This document shows positions 4,199 to 11,371 of a stretch of DNA of 64,000 nucleotides, piece after piece. This DNA is from Bacillota bacterium (GTDB lineage: Bacteria > Bacillota > Sulfobacillia > Sulfobacillales > Sulfobacillaceae). Position 1 is the first letter of the stretch. The number at the start of each line of letters is the position of its first letter. The translations under genes and the position numbers were made by a program. The DNA is taken from NCBI GenBank assembly GCA_023511625.1, contig JAIMBD010000004.1, forward strand, positions 1-64,000, read 5' to 3'. The notes beneath the pieces were generated by a model. It ran no database searches. It was not told the DNA's origin and saw only the letters and a program-made list of their open reading frames with translations.

Positions 4199-4894
4199 AT
4201 GCCGACCGTCCAGTTGCCGGATGGATCCTGGATTCCCTACACGGTGGAGGTGCGGCCGCGCCGCAAATCGTTCGCCATGGTCGTCAACGCCCAAGGGCAG
4301 GTGGCGATATTGGTCCCGCCGGGAGGGGTAGATCCCGCACTCCTCGAAGGCTGGATTCGGCACAAGGCCTCCTGGCTTCTCGACCGCCTGGCTCAATCTC
4401 GCGCGTCTCGGCGCCGGTTTGAGACCGGCGAAGAGTTTTTTCACCTCGGGGTCCCGAAGCCGCTGACGGTGACCATCGCCCCCGAGTGTTCGCCCGGGGT
4501 GTGCACGACAGACGAAGGGCTCGCCGTCGTCGTTCCCCACCCCGATGCGGTACGCGAAGCCCTGGTGCAGTTCTACCAAGCGGAGGCCAAGCGTTGGATC
4601 CCGGAACGGGTGGCCGCCTTCAGCCCTAGCCTGGCCATGGCCGCGCCGCCGGTGCGCCTTCGCGATTATCGCAGCCGGTGGGGCGCCTGCCGATCCGGAC
4701 ATTGGGTGGCCTTTCACTGGCGCCTGATGCAGGCGCCGCCGGCAGTCGTGGATTACGTCGTAGTTCACGAACTTTGCCATTGGCGGTATCCGCATCACCG
4801 GCCGACGTTTTGGCGCGCCGTCGGCCGCCTCGTCCCTGATTACGCGCACCACCACCAGTGGCTGCGAAAGCATGCGGGGGACCTTTTCTGGTAA
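4199..4894 (+). CDS. YgjP-like metallopeptidase (DUF45)
   Basis: A 231-residue protein of the YgjP/DUF45 family. The N-terminal half contains the family arrangement R-P-R-R-K-S-F-A near residue 20 and a basic W-I-R-H-K segment. The second half has L-R-D-Y-R-S-R-W-G-A-C near residue 155 and the zincin motif V-V-H-E-L-C-H-W-R (about 185-193) with a downstream H-x-x-x-F-W. H-E-x-x-H is the zinc-binding, catalytic signature of gluzincins such as YgjP and Spartan. The natural substrate of this family is not established. I chose the ATG at 4199 for the AGAGGAGAGGG upstream; the longer open frame reaches back over selW. It converges on dnaE2. Confidence 0.85.
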   Translation: MPTVQLPDGSWIPYTVEVRPRRKSFAMVVNAQGQVAILVPPGGVDPALLEGWIRHKASWLLDRLAQSRASRRRFETGEEFFHLGVPKPLTVTIAPECSPGVCTTDEGLAVVVPHPDAVREALVQFYQAEAKRWIPERVAAFSPSLAMAAPPVRLRDYRSRWGACRSGHWVAFHWRLMQAPPAVVDYVVVHELCHWRYPHHRPTFWRAVGRLVPDYAHHHQWLRKHAGDLFW

Positions 4895-4928
4895 ATCCAT
4901 GCCCCAAGGAGGCCGTTTGAGAGCAGGG

Positions 4929-7900
4929 TCATTCCAGCATCCGAGGCGGCCGCCAGGGACGTAGCGCGTCGATCGCCAAGCCCTGCGGCCGGACGTGTCC
5001 GATCACTGTCACCCACGGCCATCGAGGCCCGAACAACCACTGGCCAAATCGCTGGTACCCCTGGGGTCCCAACCACGCCTCCAGCACGCCGGTCTCGTCG
5101 TACAGCGACAGGAAGACGACGAGCCGCCCGCTGCGCGTAGGTGGACGGTGCGGCCGATACACCGTCGCCACCATCCGCACCGGCTGCCCGAGCGGGCGTC
5201 GGCGCACCGCGGCCACGCTCAGAAACCCTTGGCGCTCGAGTTCCCGGCGCCAGGGTGCCAAAAACTGGGCGCGTTGGCCAAAGCCAAGATACCGGTAATC
5301 CCACCACACCCGTCGCTCCCACGGCCATGGCTCGATGCCGCGAGGGGGAAGCAGCCCCAGCCGGTCCCTCGCCCACAAGCTGGCCAGAAGCCCCGTGCGG
5401 TCTTGGGTGATGCCGTCAAAGGCGCCGATTCGAATCAGGGTCGCCACTTGGTCTTCGTCCAGCCCGGCCCGCTCCAGCACCTCCACCGGGTGTCGGTATC
5501 CCTCGGCCGGCCGATTTTGCACCACGGCCGCCGCGCCTGCACTCCCCAATCCGGGGACCATGCCCAATCCCAGCCGCAACCGCCCCGGTGCCGGCTGGGT
5601 CACCGCCACGGCACTGCGATTGATGTCAATGGGCTCGACCACCACCCCCCGCCGCCGGGCCTCCACCAGCAAGATGTCGACGGGATAGTAGCCCATGGGT
5701 TGGGCGTTGAGGAGCCCGAGAAAGTATTCAGCGGGGTAGTGCTCCAAGAGGTAGGCCGTGCGGTAAGCCGTTTCGGCAAAGGCCGCCGCATGCGCCTCGT
5801 TGAACCCGTAGCTGGCATATCCCGCCAGTTGTTGGAACACCGTTTCGGCCACTGCCGGCTCGACTCCCCGCGCGATGGCCTTGGCCTTGAATTGCTCGCC
5901 GATGCGCGCCATCTCGGCGTGGGAGCGGCCGTGGGTCATCACCCGCCGCAAGGCATCGGCTTCGCCAGGCGTAAACCCGGCCAGCGTGCTGGCGATGGCG
6001 ATGACCTGCTCCTGAAACAGCACCACTCCGTAGGTCTTGGCCAAGATCGGCTCGAGGTCGGGATGGGGGTACCGAACCGGTTCGCGGCCGCGGCGGCGGT
6101 TCACGAAAGGGTCGACCATGTTGCCCTTAATCGGCCCAGGGCGAATCAAGGCCAAGCTGGCCACCAGGTCCTCCCAGCACTCAGGCCGCAGGCGCAGGGC
6201 CAGCGCGCGCTGGGCCGGACTCTCCAGCTGAAAGACGCCGATGCTCTCCCCTTGTTGCAGGCGCCGATAGGTGGCAGGATCTTCGGCGGGAATGGCCTCG
6301 TAGGAAAACTCCGGCGCGCGCCGCCGCACGGCGCCTACTGCGGCTTCGACGGCAGTAAAGGCGCGCAGTGCCAGCAGATCCAATTTGAGTAGGCCTAGCC
6401 GCTCCACATCGCGCTTGTCGAAGGCTAAGACCACCTCGCCCTTGGCCGAACGCTCGCACGGGCCTACCGCGACCACCGGCTCCCCGCTGATCACCACGCC
6501 GCCCAGATGCGTCCCCAGGTGGCGCGGCAGCCCCTCGGCTTGTTCTGCCCAGCGCAAAAGCTCGCGCATGCGTGCGGCCTCGGCGCGGAACCGGCGCAAT
6601 TCCGGAATCGCCTCCCACCGTTCGCGGATCTGCCCAAGCGGCGCCTCCGGCAGCGATTTGGCCAAGCGGTCGAGTTCTTGGGACGGAAAGCCCAGCGCCT
6701 TGCCGATCTCCCGCACTGCTAAACGCCGGCGGTAAGTTTGGTAGGTCGCCACCCGCGCCACCCGGTCCGCCCCGTACCGCCTGCGGACGTACTCCACCAC
6801 CTCATCCCGACGCCTAGCGTCGAAATCGATGTCGATATCCGGCGTCTCGCGCCGCTCGCGGCTCATGAAGCGCTCAAACTGCAAGCCGCGCGCGTACGCG
6901 TCCACTGCCGTGATCCCCAGCGCGTACGCCACCACCGAGTCCGCTGCCGATCCGCGGCCTGCAAACCGGATCCCCTGCCGCCGGGCCCAGCGCGCCACGT
7001 CCCACACCACCAGGAAATAGTCGGCAAACCCGGTGTCGGCGATCACCGCCAGCTCTTGGCGGACACGCCCCATCACTGCCCGCCAACGCGCTCCATAACG
7101 GCGCCGCACGCCCGCTTCCACCAACCGGGTCAGATACCGCTGGGGATCGCCGCCGGCGGGCAGCGGGAAGCGCGGCGAGTGGCGTCGGCGCAGCAGGTTC
7201 GGCGGTTCCAAGCGTTCGGCCAATGCCAGCGCATTGCGCAGCGCCTGCGGCCAAGGCGCCAACACCGCCGCCATCTCCTCCCACCGCTTGAGGTAGTTCT
7301 CGGCGTTGAGCCGCCGTTCGGGATGCACCGCCTCGACCGGTTGCCCCAGGCGGATACAGGCAAAGAGGTCAAAGAGGCCAAAGTCGGCCTTGGTCGGATA
7401 GTGCACGGCGTTGGTGGCCACGAGCGGGATTCGCCGATGGGCTCCTAAGTCCGCCAACAGGCGATGAAACTGCCGATCCCCTGGCAGCTCGCTGGCCGTC
7501 ATCTCTAAGTACAGCCGGCCGGGGGGAAAGACGCGCTGCAGCATGTGCGCGCGCTCTTCCATCAGGCGTGGCCCCCCCTCCCACCACGCCCGTCCCATCA
7601 CTCCGCTGCGGTCACCGGTCAACGCCACCAGCTCGGGGCCCCAACGCTCAAGGTCTTCCCACTCTACGGCCGGAGCTCCTCGCGGGTGATGCAGGTGGGC
7701 CGCCTGCAACACCTCCGAGAGCGCGCGATAGCCGGCATCGCCCGCGGCCAGCAGCACCAGCCGCCCCCACCCGGCCACGGTCACCTCTGCGCCCACCACG
7801 CCTTTGACCCCGTAAGCCGCTGCCGCCTCTAAAAAGGGAACCACGCCGGACACCCGGTGCAGGTCGGTGAGGGCCACCACCTCGATCGCCTGCCGCGCCG

Positions 7901-7982
7901 CCTCTTCCAGCAAGCGCTGCGGCCACGCCGTGCCCTCCAAAAAGGAAAAGGCGGAATGGACGTGCAAATGCACTCCGGCCAT
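4929..7982 (-). CDS. dnaE2: Error-prone DNA polymerase III alpha subunit, DnaE2/ImuC
   Basis: A 1017-residue C-family polymerase. It opens with the PHP domain motif H-L-H-V-H-S-A-F-S-F-L-E-G. The palm carries G-R-G-S-A-A-D-S and P-D-I-D-I-D-F-D, which supply the catalytic aspartates, and V-V-L-F-Q-E-Q-V-I follows further on, then the HhH and OB-fold region. The length is slightly below typical DnaE2 (about 1050) and well below replicative DnaE1. The context settles the assignment: it is the last gene of an operon with imuB-like and DUF6504 genes behind a LexA box. DnaE2 performs translesion synthesis with ImuB, which links it to the beta clamp. The ATG at 7982 follows the upstream small gene by 10 nt. 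Confidence 0.9.
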   Translation of the reverse strand: MAGVHLHVHSAFSFLEGTAWPQRLLEEAARQAIEVVALTDLHRVSGVVPFLEAAAAYGVKGVVGAEVTVAGWGRLVLLAAGDAGYRALSEVLQAAHLHHPRGAPAVEWEDLERWGPELVALTGDRSGVMGRAWWEGGPRLMEERAHMLQRVFPPGRLYLEMTASELPGDRQFHRLLADLGAHRRIPLVATNAVHYPTKADFGLFDLFACIRLGQPVEAVHPERRLNAENYLKRWEEMAAVLAPWPQALRNALALAERLEPPNLLRRRHSPRFPLPAGGDPQRYLTRLVEAGVRRRYGARWRAVMGRVRQELAVIADTGFADYFLVVWDVARWARRQGIRFAGRGSAADSVVAYALGITAVDAYARGLQFERFMSRERRETPDIDIDFDARRRDEVVEYVRRRYGADRVARVATYQTYRRRLAVREIGKALGFPSQELDRLAKSLPEAPLGQIRERWEAIPELRRFRAEAARMRELLRWAEQAEGLPRHLGTHLGGVVISGEPVVAVGPCERSAKGEVVLAFDKRDVERLGLLKLDLLALRAFTAVEAAVGAVRRRAPEFSYEAIPAEDPATYRRLQQGESIGVFQLESPAQRALALRLRPECWEDLVASLALIRPGPIKGNMVDPFVNRRRGREPVRYPHPDLEPILAKTYGVVLFQEQVIAIASTLAGFTPGEADALRRVMTHGRSHAEMARIGEQFKAKAIARGVEPAVAETVFQQLAGYASYGFNEAHAAAFAETAYRTAYLLEHYPAEYFLGLLNAQPMGYYPVDILLVEARRRGVVVEPIDINRSAVAVTQPAPGRLRLGLGMVPGLGSAGAAAVVQNRPAEGYRHPVEVLERAGLDEDQVATLIRIGAFDGITQDRTGLLASLWARDRLGLLPPRGIEPWPWERRVWWDYRYLGFGQRAQFLAPWRRELERQGFLSVAAVRRRPLGQPVRMVATVYRPHRPPTRSGRLVVFLSLYDETGVLEAWLGPQGYQRFGQWLFGPRWPWVTVIGHVRPQGLAIDALRPWRPPRMLE

Positions 7983-7992
7983 CCGTGGCCCC

Positions 7993-8187
7993 TTATGCCC
8001 AGTGCCTGATCCGCATCTGCCATCGCCGCCAGCGAACCACCCAGCGCGCCGCCCAACTGCCCGGGCGGATGCGGTAGCGGCGTCGGCCCCACGACACCCA
8101 CGCCTCCCCCGGCTCCCACTGCGCGCCCGGAAACGGGATCACCCGGCCCAAGACATTCCGGCCTGCGTGGCCCGGCCTGTCAGTCAT
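7993..8187 (-). CDS. Unrecognised small basic protein in the mutasome operon
   Basis: A 64-residue, Trp- and Arg-rich protein starting M-T-D-R-P-G-H-A. Its ATG overlaps the stop of the DUF6504 gene (TATGACTGA arrangement), which implies translational coupling, and dnaE2 begins 10 nt after its stop. The middle reads W-E-P-G-E-A-W-V-S-W-G-R-R-R-Y-R-I, a pattern reminiscent of the SH3-like W-x-W-x-G-R-R-Y-R segment of DUF6504, so it could be a diverged partner or duplicate of that domain. The very basic C-terminus suggests nucleic acid contact. No family name is recognised. The tight coupling argues for a real gene and a role in SOS translesion synthesis. Confidence 0.65.
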   Translation of the reverse strand: MTDRPGHAGRNVLGRVIPFPGAQWEPGEAWVSWGRRRYRIRPGSWAARWVVRWRRWQMRIRHWA

Positions 8188-8410
8188 ACACCTTGAGCAT
8201 CCACCAGCCGTCGGCGGATTGCGCCAGCTCATAGATTCCCCCATCCTCTCCCTCGACCCGCCAGCATCGCAGTTCCGGCTCCCCGCGCCACCATGCCCTG
8301 ACCTCCCGCCAGCTTTCCAAGACGGTCGCCACCCGCACGTACCGCCGCCGCCAGCGAAACCCGCGCGGCCGGCCCTGCCGGTCGGGCCATACCGCTTCTA
8401 TCGCCCGCAC
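8180..8410 (-). CDS. DUF6504 family protein
   Basis: A 76-residue protein with the pattern R-P-R-G-F-x-W-R-R-R-Y-x-R-V-A-T-V-L-E-S-W-R followed by a C-terminal Y-E-L-x-x-x-x-D-G-W-W-M-L-K-V-Y-D. This is typical of the small DUF6504 proteins encoded beside imuB and dnaE2 in Actinobacteria and related groups. The GTG start lies directly after the imuB-like stop, so translation is coupled. Its biochemical role is unknown; conserved context suggests an accessory subunit of the translesion polymerase complex. Confidence 0.75.
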   Translation of the reverse strand: MRAIEAVWPDRQGRPRGFRWRRRYVRVATVLESWREVRAWWRGEPELRCWRVEGEDGGIYELAQSADGWWMLKVYD

Positions 8411-8411
8411 G

Positions 8412-9506
8412 CTACTCCCTGCCCTTGCCCCTTCGCACGGCGCGCCACGGATCCCAATACCCGCGCAGGACTTCCTGGCGATCCAGCGCCCCGTCCGTTC
8501 CCATCCCGGCCGCAGCAGGGCGCAGATCAGGCCCCCACCACCGCATCTGCCGCACTGCGATCGGCCCCACCTCAGCTTCTACGGCCACTGCTGCAGCCGG
8601 CCAGGGCGGGAGCAGCTGCAAAAGGTCGACCAGTCGCGCCTTGACCCGCCGCGGTTCTGCAGCGGCCTCCGGCCAACGGCGCTCCCGCCGCAGCCGTTGC
8701 CCCGCTTCCCCCTGCCATTCCACTGCCAACCGCAGTACCCCCCCACGCCGTTCCGCCAACAAACTAATCAGCCGTTGCCCGAAATATTCCAGCACCCCTT
8801 CCCACCGCTCCTCGCCTGCCACAAGCTCCCGATCCCAGCGGGCTCGCACCGGCGCCTCCCCCTTTTCCCCGGCCGGGGGCAGGCAGCGCAACTGCTCCAT
8901 GAGACCAGGGACATCGCCCACGCGCTTCCACCCGCGCCGCCGCCAAGCGGCGGGCGGGTCCTCGACGTAACGCAGGGGCAGCTTTGCCCACCACGCCGCC
9001 TCCTGCTGCCAAGGCACGGCGTAGATCACGCCCCCGGCTAAGGTCCAGTGCGGCAGGCGATGGGCTCCCCCTTCGTCTCGCGCCCACCGCGCCAACAGCG
9101 GATGGCTGGCCACGCCGCCTTGGATACGGCGCGCCCAGCGGGGAACGAGTGCCTCGAGTACGGATCCCCAGGCTGACGGCGTGTCTGCTTCCGGCCATTC
9201 CCCCCATCCCGCCATACCCGCCGTCGATTCCAGGGCAAATCGCCGCGCCTGATCTTCCAACCACACGCGCAAGGCCTCTTCAACCGCCTGATAGCAGGAG
9301 GCGCGCCACGCCAACAGCCGAGGCTCCCCTCCGTACCACTTGAGGGCGGCAAAGGCTTGGCCGGGACGTCCGCCGCGGTCCCACAGCGCCTCACCCACAT
9401 CCCACACCGTGTCGCCCCGAACCACGGCGTAATCGGTCGACCCTCCAGCGGCAGCCAAGACCGTCGGCTCTGCGATGGCCCCAAGCCTCCACGCCAGATA
9501 GGCCAT
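8412..9506 (-). CDS. imuB: Short ImuB-like Y-family pseudo-polymerase
   Basis: A 364-residue protein at the head of a LexA-regulated operon ending in dnaE2, the position of imuB. The sequence is strongly diverged. The N-terminal region lacks the D-x-D and S-x-D-E motifs of active Y-family polymerases, as in other ImuB proteins. A helix-hairpin-helix-like G-W-K-R-V-G-D-V-P-G-L-M-E-Q-L segment sits near residue 205, and a little-finger-like region with repeated R-R-E-R-R-W and L-L-x-L-L-P-P-W follows. Known ImuB proteins run about 480-530 residues, so this is a shortened form. The start at 9506 is favoured by GAGAGGAG and places the LexA box upstream. No imuA (RecA-like) gene is present here. 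Confidence 0.65.
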   Translation of the reverse strand: MAYLAWRLGAIAEPTVLAAAGGSTDYAVVRGDTVWDVGEALWDRGGRPGQAFAALKWYGGEPRLLAWRASCYQAVEEALRVWLEDQARRFALESTAGMAGWGEWPEADTPSAWGSVLEALVPRWARRIQGGVASHPLLARWARDEGGAHRLPHWTLAGGVIYAVPWQQEAAWWAKLPLRYVEDPPAAWRRRGWKRVGDVPGLMEQLRCLPPAGEKGEAPVRARWDRELVAGEERWEGVLEYFGQRLISLLAERRGGVLRLAVEWQGEAGQRLRRERRWPEAAAEPRRVKARLVDLLQLLPPWPAAAVAVEAEVGPIAVRQMRWWGPDLRPAAAGMGTDGALDRQEVLRGYWDPWRAVRRGKGRE

Positions 9507-9526
9507 GCTCCGGCTCCTCTCTATCG

Positions 9527-9540
9527 AGAACATTTGTTCG
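9527..9540 (-). promoter_or_regulatory. LexA (SOS) operator of the imuB-dnaE2 operon
   Basis: The minus strand reads CGAACAAATGTTCT, matching 13 of 14 fixed and free positions of the Gram-positive LexA/DinR box CGAAC-N4-GTTCG. It lies 8 bp downstream of the -10 hexamer, over the expected transcription start, where LexA would block RNA polymerase until DNA damage. Confidence 0.88.
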
Positions 9541-9547
9541 CAATAGC

Positions 9548-9575
9548 AGTATACCCTGCTCGGCGCCGACGTCAA
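9548..9575 (-). promoter_or_regulatory. Promoter of the imuB-dnaE2 operon
   Basis: On the minus strand TTGACG (9575-9570), a 16-bp spacer and TATACT (9553-9548). The LexA box follows directly and the ATG of imuB is at 9506. Confidence 0.85.
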
Positions 9576-9631
9576 CCCGCCTTCTACCGCCTGGAAACTG
9601 GAGGTTGGCCGGTTTTAGGAGCCGGATTGCG

Positions 9632-9673
9632 CAAAAAGGCGGTGGCCAGGGGCTTTTCTTGCCCCTGGCCACC
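9632..9673 (-). terminator. Terminator of the aconitase X/IlvD operon
   Basis: A perfect 13-bp stem, GGTGGCCAGGGGC with its complement, closes a 7-nt loop and is followed on the minus strand by GCCTTTTTG. It begins 16 bp after the ilvD-like stop codon and separates that operon from imuB. Confidence 0.92.
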
Positions 9674-9688
9674 GACCGGCGCCTTGGG

Positions 9689-11371
9689 TTAGTCGACCAA
9701 GACCGCGCCCTTGCCCAATGGCTTCGCCAGCTTGCGATAGATCGCCAGCCATCCCCGCTCGCCGCTCGGCCAGTGCGCCAGCATCCGCTCCCGCCGGCGC
9801 GCCAGTTCCTCCTCCGGCACCTCGAGGTTGACGACGCGCTGGTTGACATCGATAAAGATGGGGTCGCCGTCTTCGACCAACGCCAACGGCCCGCCGTCAT
9901 ACGCTTCGGGCGAAACCTCCTTGACCACCAGCCCCTTGTTGGAAAGGCCCGACTCTTGCCCGTCGGTGACCACCGCCACTTGGTCGATGAGCCCTGCCCC
10001 CTCCAAGGCAAACACCAAATTAGAGGCCATCCCCATTCCCGGCGTGCCCTTCGGTCCGAGGCCGCGCAGCACCACCACCTCTCCCGGCTTGATGGCGCCG
10101 GCATGCACCGCCGCGATGGCCTCATCGGTGGCGTTGAATACGTGCGCCGGCCCGCGGAAGCTCAGCGGGCGGTTGTCGAGGTGCACCGGCAACTTGACCA
10201 CGCCGGTTTCGGGAGCGAGGCTCCCCCGCACCAAGACGATGGCCGGGTGATGCGCGAAGGGCCGATCCAGGGGACGAATCACTTCGGGATCGGCCACCGT
10301 GACCTCCGGCAGGATCTGGCTCCACCGGCGACCGTCCACCGTGCGCGCCTCCTGGCGCACCAGCGGCCCCAGCTGCTTGAGGACGGCCAAGGCTCCCCCT
10401 GCCGCCTCGAAGTCTTCGATAAAGTACTCGCCGTTAGGCCGCACTGCCGCCAACAGCGGCACCTGATCGGCGTACTCCTCAAACAGGCGATAGATGTCGA
10501 CATCGACCTCGGCTTCGGTGGCGATGGCTTGCAGGTGCTTGATGGTGTTGAGAGAGCCGCCCACGGCCAGCATCGCCATCACCGCGTTGGCAAAGGCATC
10601 GGGGGTTAAGAGGTCGCGCGGGCGCAGGTCCTCCTCCACCATCGCGACGATGCGCCGACCGGCCCGCTGGACCGCATCCCACATCCTCGGGCTCATGGCC
10701 AGCACCGGCGTGGTGCCCGGAAGCGCCAAACCTAAGGCCTCGGCCACGATGTGCATCGAATTGGCGGTCCCCATCCCCGGGCACACACCTGGCCCTAAGA
10801 TGGCCTGCCGGCTCATCTCCGCCAATTCCTCGTCGGTCCACTGAGCCCCGCCGGCCGCCCGCTGCGCAGCCCGCAGCCACAGCTCCTCGATGTCGATGGC
10901 CTCGCCCCGGAAGCGCCCGCTCGGCTGATAGCCGCAGGCCACCACGATGGTCGGCACATTGAGTCGCCCCGCCGCCATCAGGTGACCGGGCACCGTCTTG
11001 TCGCAGGAGGCCAGGCACACCATCCCGTCGAGCAGCGCCCCCTCCACGGCCACCTCGATGTCGTTCACGATGAGGTCGCGGGCCGACAGGATGTAGCCGC
11101 CGCGATGTCCGGCGCTGGTCACGAAGTCAGACGGCGCGGCGGTGCGAATCTCGAAAGGCACGCCCCCCGCCTCGCGGATGGCCTCTTTCACCTTGGCCGC
11201 CACCACGTCTAGGTGAGCGAAACAGGCGGCCAAGCCCGACGACGAATTGACGACCGCGATCTTCGGCTTGTCCAAATCGGCTTCGGTCAGGCCGAGCACG
11301 CCCCATTCGGCGCGCCGGACGGCCCACTGCACGGTCCCAGGCTCCACTCGACTGCGCAATCGTCTGGCCAT
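9689..11371 (-). CDS. IlvD/Edd family dehydratase
   Basis: A 560-residue Fe-S dehydratase. The three cluster cysteines of the family are all present at the expected spacing: C50 (A-A-C-F-A-H), C123 (S-C-D-K) and C197 (G-V-C-P-G-M-G-T-A-N-S-M). The C-terminal swivel domain has the G-P-K-G-T-P-G-M and D-G-Q-E-S-G-L-S-N-K segments that bind the carboxylate substrate. The family dehydrates dihydroxyacids (IlvD), 6-phosphogluconate (Edd) or sugar acids. The N-terminal motif differs from classical IlvD, and the gene is last in an aconitase X operon with no ilv genes, so I infer a catabolic sugar-acid or hydroxy-acid dehydratase. The ATG at 11371 follows GGAGGAGGAG. Confidence 0.85.
   Translation of the reverse strand: MARRLRSRVEPGTVQWAVRRAEWGVLGLTEADLDKPKIAVVNSSSGLAACFAHLDVVAAKVKEAIREAGGVPFEIRTAAPSDFVTSAGHRGGYILSARDLIVNDIEVAVEGALLDGMVCLASCDKTVPGHLMAAGRLNVPTIVVACGYQPSGRFRGEAIDIEELWLRAAQRAAGGAQWTDEELAEMSRQAILGPGVCPGMGTANSMHIVAEALGLALPGTTPVLAMSPRMWDAVQRAGRRIVAMVEEDLRPRDLLTPDAFANAVMAMLAVGGSLNTIKHLQAIATEAEVDVDIYRLFEEYADQVPLLAAVRPNGEYFIEDFEAAGGALAVLKQLGPLVRQEARTVDGRRWSQILPEVTVADPEVIRPLDRPFAHHPAIVLVRGSLAPETGVVKLPVHLDNRPLSFRGPAHVFNATDEAIAAVHAGAIKPGEVVVLRGLGPKGTPGMGMASNLVFALEGAGLIDQVAVVTDGQESGLSNKGLVVKEVSPEAYDGGPLALVEDGDPIFIDVNQRVVNLEVPEEELARRRERMLAHWPSGERGWLAIYRKLAKPLGKGAVLVD

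Follow-up and report, generated by a model that had tools for sequence, protein, structure and literature searches.

The closest described relatives of the operon analysed here are DnaE2 mutasomes without ImuA. In Deinococcus deserti, an inactive Y-family protein (ImuY), a standalone ImuB-C and DnaE2 are encoded in one LexA-controlled operon (PMC8072749), and similar gene content, also without ImuA, was described for the DnaE2X-iPolY-ImuB-C-RecA module (PMC12926913) and the Kyrpidia tusciae operon (PMC6511836). Published inactive Y-family polymerases (iPolYs) of this kind carry a clamp motif followed by the RecA-NT motif, as in M. smegmatis ImuB with QLPLW at residues 352-356 and RecA-NT at 360-387 (PMC11791113), and a survey reported that all DnaE2-linked Y-family polymerases (PolYs) without ImuA can bind RecA (PMC12926913). 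We analysed an operon on the minus strand, positions 9575-4929, of a 64,000-nucleotide stretch (the window) from a Bacillota bacterium of the order Sulfobacillales (assembly GCA_023511625.1, contig JAIMBD010000004.1, positions 1 to 64,000). The operon very likely specifies a translesion mutasome that is repressed by LexA and has its ImuB split, in which the iPolY of the whole order has lost the RecA-NT motif and one bacterial family has added a small protein, most likely an accessory subunit.

The cassette is of the iPolY-ImuB-C-DnaE2 type, already described in Deinococcus and elsewhere, and the loss of RecA-NT together with the small protein is what is new beyond the published cassettes. Unlike the D. 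deserti operon, it contains no lexA and carries an additional small gene, located between imuB-C and dnaE2, and D. deserti ImuY has a RecA-NT-like segment, VTRNVLDRFPDALVRV, not seen here. With the DnaE2X-iPolY-ImuB-C-RecA module it shares, besides gene content, a DnaE2 that is sister to the Bacillota cassettes of that layout and a host with PolC and DnaE; it differs in the missing RecA-NT, said to be common to such iPolYs, and in the extra small protein. The ImuA-ImuB-DnaE2 mutasome of Mycobacterium and Caulobacter also has a dead Y-family scaffold with a clamp motif, ImuB-C, DnaE2 and LexA control, and the two systems are expected to function alike, but here there is no ImuA, ImuB is split into two genes and DnaE2 belongs to another clade. 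Among the papers searched, none named DnaE2 together with Sulfobacillus. The field has yet to settle whether a RecA-family partner, ImuA or RecA, is required by DnaE2 mutasomes, and an order with iPolYs lacking RecA-NT provides a natural test of the survey's claim (PMC12926913).

A split ImuB with an inactive polymerase core

The four genes follow each other on the minus strand: the ImuB-like gene (9506-8412, 364 residues), the DUF6504 gene (8410-8180, 76 residues, GTG start), a 64-residue open reading frame (8187-7993) and dnaE2, encoding an error-prone C-family polymerase (7982-4929, 1017 residues). The junctions are, in order, a 1-nt gap, an 8-nt overlap of the small-gene ATG with the DUF6504 stop, and a 10-nt gap.

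Searched as a single sequence, the ImuB-like protein had no useful match in Pfam or NCBIfam, and the Y-family link was seen only with the profiles of its relatives. For the profile built from 35 homologues, all 50 matches among PDB sequences were Y-family proteins (best E value 2.7e-5), and 21 of the 35 homologues individually matched Pfam IMS at E up to 1. The AlphaFold2 model, with a mean predicted local distance difference test score (pLDDT) of 85, retrieved Dpo4, Dbh, DinB, Pol kappa and Rev1 in Foldseek (E to 1e-12); superposed on Dpo4 (3fds) it gave Z 13.5 over residues 1-315, with a large inter-domain root-mean-square deviation of 7.7 Å. Both catalytic motifs have their aspartates replaced by other residues in 35/35 homologues. 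The protein spans the full length of a Y-family polymerase core, is catalytically dead and ends where ImuB-C starts in ImuB; since it holds the whole core, it is not a shortened polymerase, and it looks short because the ImuB-C domain is a separate gene.

The DUF6504 protein matches PF20114 (E 4e-11). This profile also finds the D. deserti ImuB-C protein, annotated as DUF6504 (PMC8072749), and residues 425-499 of a canonical Paracoccus ImuB (E 2e-4, just under the Pfam cut-off). On this profile evidence, DUF6504 is the ImuB-C domain in a gene of its own, and the window therefore has a split ImuB.

DnaE2 matches NCBIfam PRK05672 (E 4e-241, 803 bits, below the 939-bit cut-off of that profile) and keeps the PDIDIDFD and LLKLDLL motifs; no clamp motif was found at its C-terminus. 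Among named genomes, the nearest relative is a Bacillota metagenome genome (JAIMAE010000116.1, 76% identity in DnaE2). In the DnaE2 tree, the order forms one clade (support 100), whose sister group is other Bacillota iPolY-DUF6504-DnaE2 cassettes (100), apart from the ImuA/ImuB-linked DnaE2s; D. deserti DnaE2 falls outside that clade with weak support (73). Seven further cassettes of this kind were found in other families of the phylum. The genome has three C-family polymerase genes, PolC-like, DnaE and DnaE2, with the PolC-like matches split by an insert in a 1415-residue frame, and it encodes a normal RecA.

These data bear on the possibility that the mutasome is of the canonical ImuA-ImuB-DnaE2 type, its ImuB being truncated or decayed and its ImuA encoded elsewhere in the genome; such a system would have the same polymerase type, SOS control and, apart from imuA, gene order. 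The ImuA profile, however, matched only RecA in this genome (47 bits, cut-off 150) and gave only sub-cut-off matches in the 60 relatives. The iPolY spans the whole Y-family core, this length is retained across the 35 homologues, and DnaE2 is not grouped with the ImuA/ImuB-linked DnaE2s, which together make this explanation very improbable. The PF00817 search detected no DinB, full-length ImuB or other Y-family gene in the genome, although the same profile also misses the very divergent iPolY of the window itself.

An earlier note on this DNA, made from its letters, had described an imuB-like gene and no imuA; the profile and the structure model show a Y-family homologue, and the genome searches found no imuA or full imuB elsewhere. 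The note's further proposal, that a minimal ImuB far shorter than the known ones was a novelty, gives way to a complete core with ImuB-C encoded next door in a known arrangement, and the coupling of all genes by overlaps that it described reduces to one junction.

Of the 61 genomes searched, 37 encode the iPolY, and they represent all three families of the order; 38 homologous loci were compared (39 with the window). Wherever a contig end does not intervene, DUF6504 is next to the iPolY gene, and in most loci dnaE2 comes after it. Three loci have extra DNA including IscB-like genes inside the operon, and another locus has its dnaE2 1.7 kb downstream. The IscB-like genes, with an N-terminal PLMP/PLIP motif and HNH residues, are found in L056 (3005-4291, oriented), L068 and L069 (2411-3706), and in all three loci the small gene and dnaE2 stay open despite the insertion.

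Other occurrences of these genes were noted. Two genomes have two iPolY copies, G020 (C106:26243-27304 and C116:24436-25500) and G010 (C49 and C91), and each of them probably carries two mutasome cassettes, as in some Deinococcus. The genome of the window has a second standalone ImuB-C/DUF6504 protein of 88 residues (E 9e-6; L138:3618-3884, contig C19:26617-26883), with no polymerase gene nearby, next to PRC-barrel-like and sporulation sigma-factor-like genes. On a Thermomicrobium roseum plasmid (L224:1694-7159), a gene annotated as recombinase A overlaps a Y-family-like gene (416 residues, matching only IMS_C), which is followed by DnaE2, possibly a RecA-iPolY-DnaE2 cassette.

The RecA-NT motif in the iPolYs of the order

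The beta-clamp-binding motif of the iPolY, Q320-M-R-W-W (8549-8535, minus strand), sits after the little finger domain, matching the place of QLPLW in mycobacterial ImuB (PMC11791113). Towards the C-terminus there is a conserved tail, DRQEVLRGYWDPWR (8483-8442, minus strand), with W351, D352 and R355 invariant, which is a candidate docking peptide. The clamp glutamine, Q320, is invariant in the 35 homologues and the tail is kept in the order, and the RecA-NT motif is not recognisable in the 35 aligned iPolYs.

In six outgroup cassettes, the clamp motif is followed by a helix-strand segment, for example LNRLLARLRKDYPAGFLDRAG, and then by the tail, SRREQMLAFYDPWRF. The WDPWR-type tail is thus also retained in distant iPolYs, where the RecA-NT motif precedes it. 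The segment LNRLLARLRKDYPAGFLDRAG resembles the RecA of the same outgroup (ALAQIEKQFGKGSIMRLG); one outgroup segment matched the RecA N-terminus with p 0.002, and five of the six outgroup tails matched each other's segments (p < 0.04). The distance from the clamp motif to WDPWR is 30-43 residues in the order (median 34) vs 44-55 in the six outgroup cassettes. We conclude with moderate confidence from these alignments that the ancestor of the order had already lost RecA-NT.

It could be argued that the operon is an ordinary iPolY-ImuB-C-DnaE2-RecA mutasome, whose iPolY binds RecA through a degenerate or relocated RecA-NT, for instance in the RRExLLQxWDPWR helix, with only the small gene being new. 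An ability to bind RecA is ascribed to all published DnaE2-linked PolYs (PMC12926913), the tail does carry a helix in the model, and a normal RecA is present in the genome. Against it, the outgroups have the RecA-NT-like segment and the WDPWR tail separately and the order retains the tail only; the linker of the order is 10-20 residues shorter than in the outgroups and is modelled as disordered; and none of the tails of the 35 iPolYs is significantly similar to the RecA N-terminus (median p 0.72). We regard this alternative as unlikely. With RecA-NT lost from the iPolY of the order, docking of RecA or ImuA by the published route is not expected.

The small protein between imuB-C and dnaE2

In the bacterial family of the window, a small open reading frame of 43-64 residues lies between DUF6504 and dnaE2 in 27/27 complete cassettes. 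The signature of the family is [KR]-[IV]-I-x-F-P ... G-x-x-[YF]-R-[IV]-R-x-x-S, in which P20 and R41 are invariant and I17, F19, R39 and S44 nearly so. The ratio of replacement to synonymous changes per site (pN/pS) is about 0.3-0.5 in most genome pairs, and the closest informative pair has four synonymous and no replacement changes. Replacement changes are well below synonymous ones, which argues that the frame encodes a real protein, a new family under purifying selection. The two sister families have no small gene and show a gap of about 20-80 nt where dnaE2 adjoins, and the DnaE2 tree places the gain of the gene after the split from them. The small gene is therefore not needed for every such mutasome.

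Searches with the small protein in Pfam, NCBIfam, PHROGs and PDB sequences gave nothing above chance, and Foldseek with its low-confidence model gave nothing. The model has an extended N-terminal arm, a beta hairpin at residues 29-40 and a helix at 45-63. In the gram-positive Y-family mutasomes YqjW-YqjX/YolD, a small N-terminal-arm protein is encoded beside the Y-family protein (PMC6511836, PMC12926913), which is at most an analogy: no YolD or other Pfam match was found in 24 members of the small family, although such arms are too short for profiles.

The earlier note had presented the 64-residue protein as novel, which agrees with its absence from the family libraries searched, its conservation and the selection on it. 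The W-x-W-G-R-R-Y-R pattern that the note saw as shared with DUF6504 did not hold up: DUF6504 reads FRWRRRYVRV and the 64-residue protein WVSWGRRRYR, and the tryptophans of the latter are not conserved in the small family. The pattern could have pointed to a truncated duplicate of DUF6504, since there is local likeness in the window pair (WGRRRYR and WRRRYVR). Profile-profile comparison nevertheless finds nothing (probability 0.1%), none of the 22 within-genome pairs beats shuffled sequences (p 0.10-0.93), and the pattern is conserved in neither family, so such an origin is scarcely credible.

Three other ideas about the small protein were rejected. The idea that it carries the lost RecA-NT motif failed for lack of similarity (median p 0.68). 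Binding to DNA by charge was discarded with a net charge from -1 to +11 across the family, which shows that charge is not conserved. Fusion to a neighbour in the sister families was discarded too, with no match there.

The small protein might instead serve the SOS response in another way, with the replicative polymerase, cell division or the clamp as possible targets, and merely share the operon. SOS operons elsewhere hold unrelated checkpoint proteins, position alone is no proof of contact, and two sister families manage without the small gene. However, its place between imuB-C and dnaE2 is fixed in all 27 cassettes, even where mobile elements split the operon, and the profile search did not find it outside the cassette. 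We find this function rather doubtful; the likeliest role of the protein of about 50 residues is that of a small accessory subunit, produced together with ImuB-C and DnaE2. As a candidate new mutasome component, it is short enough to serve as a defined probe of complex assembly.

In three loci (L044, L055 and L067), the usual small-gene ATG overlapping the Tyr-Asp-stop end of DUF6504 is replaced by ACG, because the Tyr codon there is TAC. Conservation of the frame in these loci extends further upstream than any standard start, and judging from this, the gene may use a non-standard start.

LexA control and the proposed mechanism

The operon is preceded by a sigma-70-type promoter, TTGACG-16-TATACT (9575-9548, minus strand), with the -35 hexamer TTGACG at 9575-9570, a 16-nt spacer and the -10 hexamer TATACT at 9553-9548. 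It has 10/12 consensus matches and is the sole such promoter within 4700-9800. The LexA box CGAACAAATGTTCT (9540-9527, minus strand) starts 7 nt downstream of the -10 hexamer and fits 13/14 positions of the CGAAC-N4-GTTCG-like gram-positive type; no E. coli-type box (CTGT-N8-ACAG) was found in the window. The 2.59-Mb genome has a single exact copy of the 13-mer CGAACAAATGTTC, at this operon. A LexA-like box within 160 bp upstream of the iPolY gene was detected in 34 of the 39 homologous loci, the window included, vs 0.3 expected from shuffles, so the box is not due to chance, and its conservation across loci makes SOS control an old, selected property of the operon. The genome also has a LexA gene scoring over the Pfam cut-off. 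The earlier note had placed a consensus promoter and a LexA box before the four genes and proposed a LexA-controlled mutasome operon; both elements are present, and the uniqueness and conservation of the box support the proposal. The regulatory site is thus established by computation, and LexA binding and induction by damage would be predicted from it.

We propose that DNA damage would lead to RecA-stimulated self-cleavage of LexA and free the promoter. The iPolY would act as the scaffold, binding the beta clamp through Q320-MRWW; since DnaE2 itself lacks a clamp motif, it is the iPolY that would tether the complex there. It would hold the separate ImuB-C (DUF6504), probably via the WDPWR tail, and together with ImuB-C recruit DnaE2, which would perform the error-prone synthesis. 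AlphaFold models of ImuB show ImuB-C in contact with the DnaE2 PHP domain (PMC12926913), and the standalone ImuB-C would likewise join DnaE2 to the iPolY. By analogy with the tails of UmuC and YqjW, which are known or expected binding sites of UmuD' and YolD (PMC6511836), the WDPWR tail is a candidate dock for ImuB-C. The small protein would dock onto a mutasome partner through its N-terminal I-x-F-P arm, R-x-R hairpin and helix.

Several observations weigh against this interpretation. The RecA-NT test compared short segments from few outgroups, just one of which has a tail that significantly matches its own RecA by itself, and a seventh outgroup cassette (L101, same class) is also without a clear RecA-NT motif. 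The model of the small protein is of low confidence (pLDDT 71, predicted template modelling score 0.36), and the small gene is missing from the other two families of the order. More tentatively, and with the odds against it, the operon may encode a DnaE2 mutasome without a stably docked RecA-family subunit, RecA-NT having been lost in the ancestor of the order and the new subunit of about 50 residues partly replacing, in one family, the lost regulation or the bridging of clamp and DnaE2.

Upstream of the promoter, an intrinsic terminator-like stem-loop of the preceding gene (9674-9640, minus strand; 14-bp stem and a T run) separates the operon from that gene. Elsewhere in the genome, the LexA box has only one copy with a single mismatch (L223, C17:67189-67201), which lies near genes resembling the ATP synthase epsilon subunit and cytochrome oxidase subunit II and is probably a chance occurrence.

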